The notes under the pieces: model-generated
What the model saw: the letters and a program-made list of their open reading frames with translations, nothing else
Database searches by the model: none
What the model was told of the DNA's origin: nothing
Source of the DNA: an uncultured Flavobacteriaceae bacterium
Lineage (GTDB): Bacteria; Bacteroidota; Bacteroidia; Flavobacteriales; Flavobacteriaceae
Assembly (NCBI GenBank): GCA_947493535.1
Contig: CANLRK010000002.1
Span: 124,001 to 188,000, forward strand
DNA: 64,000 nt
Direction of reading: 5' to 3'
Shown: piece by piece, positions 627 through 8,169 of the stretch
Position numbering within the stretch: the first letter of the stretch is position 1
Layout: every line of letters starts with the position of its first letter
Made by a program: the position numbers and the translations under genes

Positions 627-3600
627 ATGATACAAGCAACACCATATACCCCTAAACATAAAATTCGTATTGTAACTGCAGCCGCTTTATTTGATGGCCA
701 CGATGCTGCAATAAACATCATGCGTAGAATTATTCAAACTACCGGAGTAGAGGTAATTCACTTAGGGCATGACAGAAGTGTTGATGAAGTAGTAAATTGT
801 GCAATTCAGGAAGATGCTAATGCTATAGCAATAACCTCATACCAAGGCGGACATAATGAGTATTTTAAATACATGTACGATTTGCTAAAGGAAAGAGGTG
901 CTGGCCACATAAAGATTTTTGGAGGCGGAGGTGGAGTAATACTTCCTTCTGAAATTAAGGAGTTGATGGATTACGGAATTACACGTATTTACGCACCTGA
1001 TGATGGCCGTGAAATGGGCTTGCAAGGTATGATTAATGATTTGGTAGAAAAATCTGACTTTGCTATTGGTGATACCTTAAACGGAGAAATAGATAAACTT
1101 GCAACCAAAGAAATTGGTGCTATTGCTCGTGTGATTTCATCAGCAGAAAACTTTCCTGAAGTTGCAAAAGCTACCTTAGAGAAAATTCATCAACAAAATA
1201 AGGGTTCTAAAACTCCAGTTTTAGGAATTACAGGAACTGGTGGAGCGGGTAAATCATCTTTGGTAGATGAGTTAGTCCGTCGTTTTTTAATTGATTTTCC
1301 AGAGAAAACTATCGGGTTAATTTCGGTAGATCCTTCAAAAAGAAAAACAGGAGGCGCGTTATTAGGTGACCGTATTCGTATGAATGCCATAAACAATAAA
1401 CGTGTTTACATGCGTTCGTTAGCAACGCGCCAATCAAACTTAGCCTTATCAAAATATGTAAATGAGGCTGTTGAGGTGCTAAAAGCAGCAAAGTTTGATT
1501 TAATTATTTTAGAAACTTCTGGTATTGGGCAATCTGACACAGAAATTATAGAGCATTCTGACACGTCGTTGTATGTAATGACTCCTGAATTTGGTGCGGC
1601 TACACAATTGGAAAAAATAGACATGCTAGATTTTGCTGATTTGGTAGCTATAAACAAATTTGATAAGCGAGGTGCTTTAGATGCATTAAGAGATGTAAAA
1701 AAGCAATACATGCGCAATAATAATTTGTGGGATGTTCATATGGACGATATGCCAGTGTTTGGAACTATAGCCTCTCAATTTAATGATCCTGGAATGAATT
1801 CATTATACAAATCTATCATGGATAAATTGGTAGAAAAGTCTGGGGCAGATTTAAAATCCTCATTTGAAATAACAAAACAAATGTCTGAAAAGATATTTGT
1901 AATTCCTCCAAGTCGTGTACGCTACTTATCTGAAATAGCAGAAAACAATAGAAGTTATGATGCTAAAGCATCAGTTCAAAAAGAAGTAGCTCAAAAACTT
2001 TACGGAATTTATAAAACAATTGAAACCGTAGTTGAAGCAAAAGTTACATTAGATAAATCAGGAATTGATAGTGAATCTGTTGCTTCGGTTTCAGAAGAAA
2101 ACAAAGATTTTTTACGTTTACTGATAGCACAGTTTGATCGTGTAAAAATGGATTTAGATCCGTATAACTGGGAAGTAATTACTGGTTGGGATGAGAAAGT
2201 AAACAAGTACAAACAGCCTGTTTACTCCTTTAAAGTACGCGACAAAGAAATAAAAATACAAACACATAGTGAATCATTATCTCACACTCAAATAGCAAAA
2301 GTTGCGCTACCAAAGTATTCTGCTTGGGGTGATATTTTAGGTTGGTGTTTGCAAGAAAATGTACCAGGAGAGTTCCCGTACGCTTCAGGACTGTATCCGT
2401 TTAAACGTACAGGAGAAGATCCTTCACGTATGTTTGCTGGAGAAGGAGGGCCTGAACGAACCAATAAACGGTTTCATTATGTAAGTGCTGGTATGCCAGC
2501 GGCGCGTTTGTCTACGGCATTTGATTCGGTTACGTTATATGGTAACGACCCAGATTTACGTCCGGATATCTATGGGAAAATTGGTAATGCGGGGGTGTCT
2601 ATTTGCTGCTTAGATGATGCTAAGAAATTATATTCAGGATTTGATTTAGCAGATCCGATGACCTCTGTTTCTATGACAATTAATGGACCAGCGCCAATGT
2701 TGTTAGGATTCTTTATGAACGCAGCTATAGATCAGCAATGTGAGAAATATATAAAAGAAAATGGTTTAGAAGCTGAGGTTACTAAAAAGATAGAGAAAAT
2801 ATATAAAGATAAAGGCATAGTTCGCCCTGAGTACCAAGGTGAACTACCAGAAGGAAATAATGGTTTGGGATTATTTTTGTTAGGGGTAACAGGAGATCAA
2901 GTGTTGCCAGCTGAAGTATATCAAGAAATTAAAACAGCAACCTTAAGCGCTGTAAGAGGTACGGTTCAAGCTGATATTTTAAAAGAAGATCAAGCTCAAA
3001 ACACATGTATTTTTTCTACAGAATTTGCCTTGCGTTTAATGGGTGATGTGCAAGAGTATTTTATTGAAAAGAATGTGCGTAACTTCTATTCTGTATCTAT
3101 TTCGGGTTACCATATTGCAGAAGCAGGAGCTAATCCTGTAACACAATTAGCCTTAACCCTAGCCAACGGATTTACTTATGTGGAATATTATTTAAGTAGA
3201 GGAATGGATATTAATAAGTTTGGGCCAAACTTATCATTTTTCTTCTCTAATGGTATTGACCCTGAATATGCTGTAATTGGTCGTGTTGCTCGTAAGATAT
3301 GGGCAAAAGCCCTAAAGTATAAATACGGAGCCAATCCAAGAGCTCAAATGTTAAAGTATCATATTCAAACATCTGGCCGTTCTTTACATGCTCAAGAAAT
3401 AGACTTTAACGATATCCGTACTACTTTACAAGCCTTATATGCTATTTATGATAATTGTAATTCATTACACACCAATGCGTATGATGAAGCAATTACTACT
3501 CCAACAGAAGCATCTGTACGTAGGGCTATGGCAATACAATTAATTATCAATAAAGAGTTAGGGTTAACTAAAAATGAAAACCCTATTCAAGGATCATTTA

Positions 3601-4049
3601 TTATTGAAGAGTTAACTGATTTAGTAGAAGAGGCCGTATTAGCAGAGTTTGACCGTATTACAGAAAGAGGGGGGGTGCTTGGTGCCATGGAAACCATGTA
3701 TCAACGTTCAAAGATACAAGAAGAAAGCTTGTACTACGAAACTTTAAAGCATAATGGTAAATTTCCAATTATTGGTGTAAACACCTTTTTAAGTAAAGAT
3801 GGTTCACCAACAGTAACACCAGATGAGGTAATACGAGCTACAGAAACTGAAAAGCAATATCAAATTAACATGCTGAATGATTTACATGCAATGCATGATA
3901 CTACAGCTATGTTGAAAGATTTACAGAGAGCAGCTATTAATAATGAAAACATTTTTGAAAAACTCATGGATGTATGTAAAGTAGCTTCTTTAGGTCAAAT
4001 AACCAATGCGCTTTTTGAAGTAGGAGGACAGTACCGTCGAAATATGTAA
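627..4049 (+). CDS. icmF: Fused acyl-CoA mutase with G-protein chaperone (isobutyryl-CoA mutase type)
   Basis: A single 1140-aa chain carries all three modules of IcmF: a B12-binding domain at about 5-140 with FDGHDAAIN as the cobalamin-binding DxHxxG-like loop, a MeaB-like GTPase at about 195-410 with P-loop GTGGAGKSS (about 203-211), and a C-terminal radical mutase domain at about 540-1140. The family uses adenosylcobalamin to interconvert isobutyryl-CoA and butyryl-CoA, while the GTPase part handles cofactor loading and repair. The frame stays open to a TTG at 585, but family members begin close to the TPYxPKHK segment, so the ATG at 627 is preferred. No cobalamin riboswitch is visible upstream. 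A terminator follows directly, so it is monocistronic. Exact substrate (isobutyryl versus pivalyl or isovaleryl CoA) is not resolved. Confidence 0.93.
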
Positions 4050-7000: not shown

Positions 7001-7093
7001 TATTATTATAATTGATTTCGTAAATTTATATTATAGAATGCATCTTTTTAAATAAGTTTTCGTCTATTATATGAATAGTAAAATAAATGAATT

Positions 7094-7198
7094 ATGAAAA
7101 CAGATAAAAATTGTACTTGTACATGCGAAAATTGTAAAAATGGACAATGCCAAAACTGCACTTGTGAAAGTTGTTCATGCTCAGGGTGTAATTGTTAA
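7094..7198 (+). CDS. Metallothionein-like cysteine-rich peptide (34 aa)
   Basis: A short frame from ATG 7094 to TAA 7196-7198. Of 34 residues, 11 are cysteine (7, 9, 11, 14, 19, 22, 24, 27, 29, 32, 34), all in CxC or CxxC spacing apart from one wider gap, with no aromatic residue. This pattern is what metal-thiolate cluster peptides such as metallothioneins show, so zinc, copper or cadmium binding is inferred. It is too short for routine gene calling and may be unannotated in relatives. It lies 45 bases upstream of a SigZ-type sigma factor gene in the same direction, with an RNA hairpin between, so the two are probably co-transcribed. No experimental homolog is known to me. Confidence 0.6.
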   Translation: MKTDKNCTCTCENCKNGQCQNCTCESCSCSGCNC

Positions 7199-7211
7199 TA
7201 GATTAAAAAAA

Positions 7212-7241
7212 ACTTCTCTTCTTTTTAATAAGGAGAGGAGT
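7212..7241 (+). promoter_or_regulatory. Hairpin covering the ribosome binding site of the sigma factor gene
   Basis: CTTCTCTTCT (7213-7222) can pair with AGGAGAGGAG (7231-7240): ten pairs including two G-U, plus one closing A-T pair, with loop TTTTAATA. The right arm holds a strong Shine-Dalgarno sequence, AGGAG, eight bases before the ATG at 7244. No T tract follows, so it is not a terminator. Strong Shine-Dalgarno sequences are rare in Bacteroidota. Confidence 0.6.
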
Positions 7242-7243
7242 AA

Positions 7244-7795
7244 ATGTTTGTTATGACCAGCAAAGAACTTTGGGAATTATATCATATAGATATTAAGCGC
7301 TTCATTTTTAGTAAAGTAAAAAATGAACAACTAGCTAATGATCTTACACAAGAAACATTTCTAAAAGCTCATATAAATCTTAATAAATTAAAAGATTTAA
7401 CAAAAGCCAAGCAATGGCTATTTTCTATTTCTCGTAACCTGATATATGATTATTTTAGAAAGAATACAGTTTCTGTTGCCATTGATGAAAATATGATGAG
7501 TGAATCCCTTTCTCAAGAAACGGAACACACAGCTCAAGATTGTTTACTAGGCATCATTAAAAACTTACCCAAAAAATACCGTGATCCGTTGTTTTTATCT
7601 GATGTTAAAGGAATGAAACAAGCAGCTGTGGCAGCACAATTAGGTTTAGCATTGCCTACAGTAAAATCGCAAATTCAACGAGCAAGAAAGTTAATAACTC
7701 AAGGATATATGGAATGCTGTGATTACAAATTGAATGATGATGGTTTTCTCATAGGTGAAGTTCAGGAAAAGGAAAATTGTAAAGTATGTAATTAG
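7244..7795 (+). CDS. sigZ: RNA polymerase sigma-70 factor, SigZ family
   Basis: A 183-aa ECF-type sigma factor. Region 2 lies at about 8-75 (ANDLTQETFLKAH; WLFSISRNLIYDYFRK) and region 4 at about 105-155 (KYRDPLFLSDVKGMKQAAVA; LPTVKSQIQRARKL). Beyond region 4 is the SigZ-type tail with cysteines 158-159 in ECCDY and 179/182 in ENCKVCN, which looks able to bind a metal or react with oxidants. No anti-sigma factor gene is adjacent; the cysteine-rich peptide gene precedes it. The start at 7244 is supported by the purine-rich ribosome binding site; ATG 7253 is an alternative. Its stop overlaps the end of the convergent glyoxalase gene by four bases. Target promoters are unknown. Confidence 0.88.
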   Translation: MFVMTSKELWELYHIDIKRFIFSKVKNEQLANDLTQETFLKAHINLNKLKDLTKAKQWLFSISRNLIYDYFRKNTVSVAIDENMMSESLSQETEHTAQDCLLGIIKNLPKKYRDPLFLSDVKGMKQAAVAAQLGLALPTVKSQIQRARKLITQGYMECCDYKLNDDGFLIGEVQEKENCKVCN

Positions 7796-8169
7796 TTAAT
7801 ACGCCACGGAGGGTTAATTCTGTTTTCTCCAGCATGGTAAATGATAATTTTATGTCCGTCAGGATCATATAAGCTAGCTTCATACCAAAGCCATGACTGT
7901 AGAGTAGGTTTAGAACTAAAAACTATTCCTTTTTCCATCAGCTCATTTACTGTAGTTTCAATATTAGCTACTTCAAAATAAATAGTAATATTGTTTTCCT
8001 GTTTAAGTTTTTCAATATGATGAACTGAAAAAGTACTAGTGCCATTGGGGCATAACAATCTTGCATATCTAGGTAATGCGTTTACAATTAGTTGCAAACC
8101 TAGTTTTTGATAAAAAGCTACCGATGCTTTAACATCAGTAGCTGTTATGGTAAGCTGATTTAAATTCAT
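7792..8169 (-). CDS. Glyoxalase/bleomycin resistance (VOC) family protein
   Basis: A 125-aa VOC-fold protein starting MNLNQLTITATDVKAS, with the two beta-alpha-beta-beta-beta modules expected of the family and the closing YEASLYDPDGHKIIIYHAG. VOC proteins include glyoxalases, dioxygenases and antibiotic-binding proteins; the substrate here is not identifiable. The frame is open further upstream to 8256, but the ATG at 8167-8169 overlaps the TGA of the MFS gene as ATGA, which indicates translational coupling and fixes the start. The transporter-VOC pairing suggests a role in handling a toxic small molecule, which is inference. Confidence 0.85.
   Translation of the reverse strand: MNLNQLTITATDVKASVAFYQKLGLQLIVNALPRYARLLCPNGTSTFSVHHIEKLKQENNITIYFEVANIETTVNELMEKGIVFSSKPTLQSWLWYEASLYDPDGHKIIIYHAGENRINPPWRIN

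Follow-up and report, generated by a model that had tools for sequence, protein, structure and literature searches.

A gene for a cysteine-rich, metallothionein-like peptide and a gene for a SigZ-type ECF sigma factor lie together in the window, a 64,000-nucleotide stretch of a contig from an uncultured Flavobacteriaceae bacterium, and many marine bacteria keep the two side by side as a unit. The pair is preceded by a conserved and nearly unique promoter-like sequence, and a conserved hairpin separates the two genes. We consider it probable that they form a two-gene, self-controlled metal(loid) defence cassette, and the cassette looks like a minimal self-regulating defence against metal or arsenic. 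Its features in the window are the following.

7039 to 7044, plus strand: -35 element TGCATC (then TTTTT) of the predicted SigZ promoter, from a pattern in 63 of 64 loci
7061 to 7066, plus strand: predicted -10 element CGTCTA, 33 bases upstream of the ATG of the peptide, part of the only exact promoter match in the window
7094 to 7198, plus strand: gene for the Cys-rich, metallothionein-like peptide (ORF, conservation)
7212 to 7241, plus strand: intergenic hairpin of 12 pairs, which may terminate transcription in part or mask the start of the sigma gene (folding, terminator scan)
7244 to 7795, plus strand: SigZ-type ECF sigma factor gene (Sigma70_r2 and r4_2 above the Pfam cut-offs; SigZ the best NCBIfam model, under cut-off)
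7541 to 7543, plus strand: Cys100 codon, in the linker directly before sigma4, unchanged across 17 clade A sequences, with a Cys pair at this place in clade B
7715 to 7720, plus strand: codons of Cys158 and Cys159, which close the final sigma4 helix (137-159 in the model); both are constant in 17 clade A sequences
7778 to 7789, plus strand: codons of the C-terminal Cys179-x-x-Cys182; both Cys are constant in 17 clade A sequences and lie in a low-confidence part of the model

A cysteine-rich peptide gene upstream of a SigZ-type sigma factor gene

The first-pass annotation described a 34-residue peptide with 11 cysteines encoded 45 bases upstream of a SigZ-type sigma factor, and both an ORF check and conservation confirmed this. 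The peptide (MKTDKNCTCTCENCKNGQCQNCTCESCSCSGCNC) contains no aromatic residue and no His, and the 45 bases run from the end of its ORF to the sigma ATG at 7244. TGY makes up 3.2% of the triplets in the window, which puts the chance of 11 in 34 at about 6e-9 before multiple testing; the reality of the peptide is settled by its conservation. Like the SmtA/BmtA-type metallothioneins, it is small and Cys-rich (11 of 34 residues), with CxC and CxxC spacings and no aromatics. In contrast to them, it has no His, no metallothionein Pfam model and no match among PDB sequences. SmtA is also longer than this peptide. Searches of Pfam and NCBIfam with the window peptide gave no match at E<=1, a PDB sequence search with the peptide family gave none at E<=10, and no metallothionein model was among the Pfam matches of 19 peptide members at E<=1, so homology to a described metallothionein family was not found in these three collections. 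The peptide is predicted to bind metal through Cys thiolates.

The genome of the window (G000) has 2.3 Mb, and the relatives used for comparison are Flavobacteriaceae. The cassette is flanked on its 5′ side by an AgcS symporter gene and on its 3′ side by genes for a VOC and an MFS protein, both on the opposite strand. As the first-pass annotation had stated, there is no anti-sigma gene among these neighbours. The VOC-fold (glyoxalase-like) gene, at 7795-8169 on the minus strand, is convergent with sigZ and ends just past it; it was ruled out as ArsI/CadI, with an NCBIfam score of 13 of the 116 bits required.

The sigma factor gene has 183 codons. Since its homologues start with 'MTT..', the real start may be the ATG at 7253. 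The protein has sigma2 and sigma4 regions above the Pfam cut-offs (PF04542, 49.3 bits against 24; PF08281, 50.1 bits against 25.7) and no Pfam match to sigma3, which is the makeup of an ECF sigma-70 factor. Its best NCBIfam models are the equivalog models of Bacillus SigZ, NF007215 and TIGR02959, and it falls below both curated cut-offs (162.5 of 212 and 151.1 of 168.65 bits) and thus outside the equivalog. In the tree described below it belongs to the SigZ family in the wide sense, and 'SigZ' is correct as a family name; the earlier identification held at that level and failed at the two curated cut-offs.

Cysteines are found at positions 100, 158, 159, 179 and 182, and all five are invariant in 17 of 17 aligned clade A sigma factors. 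The last four had been noticed before, and Cys100 had been missed. The sigma factor of the clade A locus L104, from outside this alignment, stops short of the last Cys. Clade B sigma factors have a Cys pair at the linker position, a CC past sigma4 and a CxxC, which is lost in L027; both L027 and L104 retain the peptide with part of the sigma CxxC gone. In the structural model (mean pLDDT 85.4, pTM 0.44), the CC pair closes the last helix of sigma4 and a short strand pair comes next; the CxxC end has low confidence, the tail being poorly modelled. A fold search gave ECF sigma factors as best matches over sigma2 and sigma4 and nothing usable for the Cys tail.

Conservation of the pair in flavobacteria

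SigZ was found at E<=1e-25 in 32 of 197 genomes (the window's own included), and peptide matches at E<=1 were found in 47 of the 197, many of them weak and within long proteins. Among 30 fetched sigma loci, 25 have a Cys-rich peptide upstream, 19 in clade A (the window included) and 6 in clade B. The five most distant loci (L033-L037) have no Cys-rich peptide within 600 bases, and their sigma factors are without the linker Cys. The clade A locus L026 lies close to a contig end and has a shortened sigma ORF. A further 41 clade A loci (L068-L108) came from a scan of named genomes, covering the best 80 loci of a longer candidate list; they include ones from Kordia, Winogradskyella, Polaribacter, Tenacibaculum and Aquimarina, and some of these genomes duplicate genomes of the 197-genome search. 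The peptide is intact in 40 of the 41 and lies within 129 bases of the sigma match in 39, with that of L073 about 0.7 kb off.

The first-pass annotation had held that its proposal would fall if the small frame were not conserved next to sigZ in relatives, or were conserved at the DNA level without codon bias for cysteine; it has withstood this test. Across the 66 flavobacterial loci (the 25 peptide-bearing and the 41 named ones, which include some genomes twice), an intact Cys-rich ORF was found upstream of the sigma gene in 65, and the remaining locus has stops in both genes. The 53 distinct clade A coding sequences have TGT and TGC mixed in every Cys column with the residue constant (L075, L103 and L106 were omitted from this table because their spacing did not fit). 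The Cys codons thus vary only synonymously, which shows that conservation acts on the protein and not on the DNA.

The 19 clade A peptides of the first set share all 11 Cys and one Gly without exception, with variation at most other positions, and 55 of 58 clade A peptides have exactly the same Cys spacing (exceptions L075, L103 and L106). The clade B peptide differs from that of clade A and has 37-41 residues with 14 Cys invariant in six of six, so that two sigma clades correspond to two different peptides, with 11 and 14 Cys. The 599,563 bases of the loci contain 70 Cys-dense frames. The upstream peptide accounts for 64 of them; two more encode the peptides of L072 and L107, and L116, L117, L119 and L125 have the remaining Cys-rich frames. 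None of the 41 clade A loci read by eye has a metal gene beside the cassette. In the MAG locus L107, at about 2840-3180, peptide and sigma genes each carry an in-frame stop, as if the pair had decayed jointly or the sequence contained an error.

A nearly unique predicted promoter upstream of the peptide

Upstream of the peptide, the pattern TG[CT][AG]TC-16 bases-N[GA]TC was found in 63 of 64 loci, L077 deviating in the -10 element. The spacing is 16 in every matching locus, with 14-18 permitted in the search. A 16-base spacing and CGTC are features of ECF-like promoters. From these sequences we infer that SigZ uses a TGCATC-N16-CGTC promoter. When the 197 genomes were searched for the exact promoter (TGCATCTTTT-N13-GTCT), 18 of the 19 clade A genomes had it in front of the peptide, and the other (G115) had it there with one mismatch. 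Two further exact sites occur in the clade A genomes, one intragenic (G100) and one intergenic (G085), and the other 178 genomes have eight in total.

The intergenic site in G085 precedes a CDF cation-efflux gene (L188:563-1477, minus strand; PF01545, 166 bits), and no other clade A genome was seen with a second exact site between genes. In a genome of the same genus as the window's (G003), a SigZ-type promoter with one mismatch lies some 60 bases ahead of a rhodanese gene (L201:1079-1468, minus strand). These two were the exceptions among 12 non-peptide sites that were opened; the other 10 are intragenic.

When two mismatches were allowed, the 18 clade A genomes with SigZ had 124 sites compared to 98 for the reversed control, so that weak targets are indistinguishable from noise. 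A wider regulon in the window's genome was rejected, since there were four such sites compared to five for the reversed control; of the three away from the peptide, the one that was opened (L202) is intragenic. The SigZ regulon therefore seems to consist of the cassette and an occasional further gene, and weak targets are possible.

Five peptides have no sigZ in the flanks that were read (L041, L048, L058, L059 and L067). The promoter pattern is absent at all five, with 127 bases available for searching at L059, and a degraded promoter is visible at L041. L041 and L048 retain 8 and 10 of the 11 Cys, and they adjoin an Lrp-like gene and its neighbour (by eye), the two genes that come after the cassette at many clade A loci; L041 and L048 look like cassette relics. 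L058, L059 and L067 have kept many Cys without the sigma factor.

A conserved hairpin between the two genes

The hairpin in the window has a minimum free energy of -15.5 kcal/mol (z -3.66) and is terminator-like by scan. The gap between peptide and sigma folds at z < -2 in 56 of 58 loci (median -4.65), compared to 28 of 126 control same-strand gaps in the same loci (median -0.9). A helix of at least 8 pairs is common to both sets (57 of 58 loci and 109 of 126 control gaps), and a helix with a U-rich tail was found in 39 of 58 loci compared to 22 of 126 control gaps. The sequence of the hairpin varies between species while its structure is conserved. The hairpin may act by partial termination or by covering the sigma start, and either would yield more peptide than sigma factor.

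Eleven Cys codons followed by a hairpin and a regulator gene also resemble amino-acid attenuation, in which the Cys-rich ORF would be a leader: ribosomes would stall at the Cys codons when Cys-tRNA is short, the terminator would be prevented from forming, and sigZ would be transcribed. We regard this as very improbable. The 5′ arm of the hairpin pairs with the peptide coding region no better than shuffled arms do (median z +0.54, none of 58 below -2), and a competing pairing as strong as the hairpin is present in one of 58 loci. The exact Cys spacing, kept in all but three of the peptides, and a Cys-rich ORF that follows the sigma gene in the relatives L125 and L215 likewise argue against a leader. 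An attenuator was rejected on the ground that the leader offers no alternative pairing with the terminator arm in the 58 loci.

SigZ relatives in other phyla and their arsenic neighbours

The named-genome scan also yielded, among its best 80 loci, SigZ relatives from other phyla, and the motif TGCRTCYTTTT-N12-GTCT adjoins many SigZ relatives outside the flavobacteria. In 18 genomes behind such loci, 14 motif sites were found in 13 genomes, all at the SigZ locus, compared to none for the control, and five genomes have no exact site; since most of these loci were picked because the motif had already been seen there, the new fact is that there are no other exact sites. A less biased test was a scan of 395 Bacteroidota genomes (the window's own included), in which 15 exact sites were found in 12 genomes, compared to 4 for the reversed control. 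Thirteen of the 15 (12 of 14 without the window) are within 1.5 kb of a SigZ gene, the exceptions being L214 and L221.

Arsenic genes scored above the NCBIfam cut-offs beside SigZ in 9 of the 17 loci whose neighbours were scanned, these 17 having been chosen by eye.

ArsM beside SigZ: L110, L112, L124, L216 and L217 (above cut-off)
ArsI/CadI beside SigZ: L127, L131 and L212 (above cut-off)
ACR3 beside SigZ: L212 (above cut-off)
ArsA and an ArsE-like thioredoxin beside SigZ: L119 (above cut-off)
Under cut-off beside SigZ: ArsM in L121; ArsI/CadI in L126; ArsC and a MIP channel in L134; permeases in L034, L116 and L132

At L119, ArsA is upstream of the motif site, and at L131 a consensus-like promoter site was not found. 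Other neighbours of SigZ agree poorly with a role in metal defence alone: MATE in L208 (by HMM) and, by eye, a PhzF-like gene in L211 and PAP2-like genes in L209 and L210. In the latter two genomes there are two SigZ-type sites 0.8 kb apart (L209/L219 and L210/L220), one before sigZ and one before the PAP2-like gene (by eye), and no metal gene was seen at these sites. The cyanobacterial SigZ genes of L122 and L129 are 3′ of a gene of the DUF2703 kind behind the same motif (PF10865, 93 bits, in L122; by eye in L129).

Cys-rich ORFs that are non-homologous to the peptide partner SigZ in L117, L119, L125, L135, L215 and L218, and in L125 and L215 the ORF is downstream of the sigma gene. These bear on the role of the peptide. 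Rather than being a bulk scavenger, it could mainly regulate SigZ, as a small anti-sigma-like or metal-donor partner that gives metal to the sigma tail, or withdraws it, through direct contact. The strict one-to-one pairing, the correspondence of each of the two sigma clades to a peptide of its own and the tendency of a sigma-less peptide to decay (L041, L048) agree with such a role. However, three of the five solo peptides retain many Cys without a sigma factor, other SigZ genes are partnered by these unrelated ORFs, and arsenic enzymes occupy the same promoter-linked position in relatives. The last two points suggest that the peptide is an output rather than a contact partner, and we consider the regulatory role unlikely.

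No evident metal gene adjoins the plasmid-borne SigZ genes of Vibrio and Priestia. On the Priestia megaterium plasmid (L233, at about 3933-3962, minus strand), TGCATC-N16-CGTC faces an aldo/keto reductase gene that is divergent from sigZ (by eye), a possible target of a Bacillus-type SigZ. This SigZ belongs to the same tree family as that of the window and shares the CC pair and a similar adjoining motif; it differs in being without CxxC and in its aldo/keto reductase neighbour.

Vicinal CC and CxxC are able to form disulfides. The signal could thus be thiol or disulfide stress instead of a metal, with the tail Cys switching when they are oxidized or form adducts with electrophiles, and with the peptide serving as a thiol buffer; the rhodanese gene behind a one-mismatch site in G003 and the aldo/keto reductase faced by the Priestia motif fit this. 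Against it, the neighbours in relatives are specific to arsenic (ArsM, ArsI/CadI, ACR3 and ArsA), and the CxC/CxxC spacing of the peptide is metallothionein-like, which makes a thiol signal quite unlikely in our view.

In a tree of 84 rows, 81 are SigZ relatives that stand apart from three other ECFs (support 98/96); these three rows are the whole outgroup, and two of them are on long branches. Clades A and B group together (99/91), next to a clade of Bacteroidota in which some members are linked to ArsM or ArsI (82/82). The other sigma factors with Cys-rich partners are placed elsewhere. The type of partner (Cys-rich, or arsenic and efflux) changes at least four times on the tree, with partner labels assigned by the author, and a single clade of all Cys-partner sigma factors was rejected (p-AU 0.003) in a topology test made after the tree.

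Over the whole family, it seems to us an even call whether SigZ factors are cross-phylum, one-component sigma factors that each serve nearly a single promoter, with an on-board sensor for As(III) or soft metals. The promoter (TGCRTCYTTTT-N11-CGTCT) would have been kept and the output swapped between an arsenite methyltransferase, an ArsI/CadI enzyme, ACR3, permeases and independently recruited metallothionein-like peptides. On the same reading, the flavobacterial form would be the minimal closed loop, made of the sigma factor, a scavenger peptide and an attenuating hairpin.

Discussion

Metal sensing through C-terminal Cys without an anti-sigma factor is described for CorE, CorE2 and OrbS (PMC8999054, PMC9023288, PMC3107203). 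CorE and CorE2 are sigma factors of Myxococcus xanthus, formerly ECF44 and now partly ECF238, and in the published accounts cited here CorE needs copper to activate its target even when it is overproduced. Like the SigZ of the window, they are ECF factors without an anti-sigma factor, with a Cys-rich C-terminal end and Cys in the linker between sigma2 and sigma4, and they serve metal defence. The cysteine motifs differ: in place of the CXC of the CorE linker, SigZ has one Cys (100) in clade A and a CC pair in clade B, and its tail, CC-X19-CxxC, matches neither C-X4-C-X2-C-X-C nor CC-X3-C-X2-C-X-C of CorE and CorE2 (PMC9023288). CorE controls several copper genes, whereas SigZ seems to serve its own promoter and the metallothionein-like peptide. 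OrbS of Burkholderia cenocepacia (ECF243) has a C-terminal Cys cluster as an on-board metal sensor, as proposed here for SigZ; unlike what is proposed for SigZ, it responds to Fe(II) and is inhibited by the metal. It controls siderophore genes and has the motif C-X2-C-X3-C-X5-C, and the part of PMC9023288 used here makes no mention of a peptide partner. CorE-like control has been suggested in a review for ECF287 and ECF288 from their Cys-rich C-terminal ends, and these groups could include SigZ. By analogy, SigZ would work like CorE, yet without the CorE Cys motifs and from below the SigZ equivalog cut-offs.

The mechanism that we propose for the metal(loid) defence cassette is drawn by analogy with CorE/CorE2 and OrbS. 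With no anti-sigma gene adjoining, the linker Cys and the C-terminal CC...CxxC of SigZ would sense a thiol-seeking metal(loid) directly, as an on-board sensor, and the metal would activate rather than inhibit the sigma factor. Metal-loaded SigZ would engage RNA polymerase and fire essentially one promoter, TGCATC-N16-CGTC, ahead of the peptide and sigma genes; the intergenic hairpin would lead to mostly peptide message and little sigma message; and the peptide would bind metal, strip the sigma factor and shut the loop. The candidate ligands are As(III), Cd(II), Zn(II) and Cu(I). As(III) is a candidate because of the arsenic genes beside family members, and this cross-phylum evidence makes it a leading one; Zn and Cd are candidates because of the single CDF gene behind the promoter. 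The first-pass annotation had named zinc, copper, cadmium and diamide, a list that is extended here by As(III) and, from one genome, by a cation-efflux gene. Its 'compact two-gene switch' is strengthened by the near-unique ECF-type promoter, by the absence of this promoter at the five sigma-less peptides and by the conserved hairpin. The promoter, the hairpin, Cys100 and the arsenic link of the family were not part of that interpretation, which as a whole is partly supported.

A table of a 2023 sigma factor review gives no function for B. subtilis SigZ (PMC10141391), and among the matches listed in a search of the open-access literature we found no report of the pairing, of a SigZ promoter or of a link between SigZ and arsenic. 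SigZ, an orphan sigma factor, now has a candidate promoter and candidate targets, sensor residues and ligands. It is a sigma factor that seemingly serves almost one promoter, and it has been paired repeatedly with unrelated Cys-rich ORFs, as the rejection of a single-clade origin indicates. If the ligand is As(III), the SigZ family would be an arsenic sensor of a kind other than ArsR.
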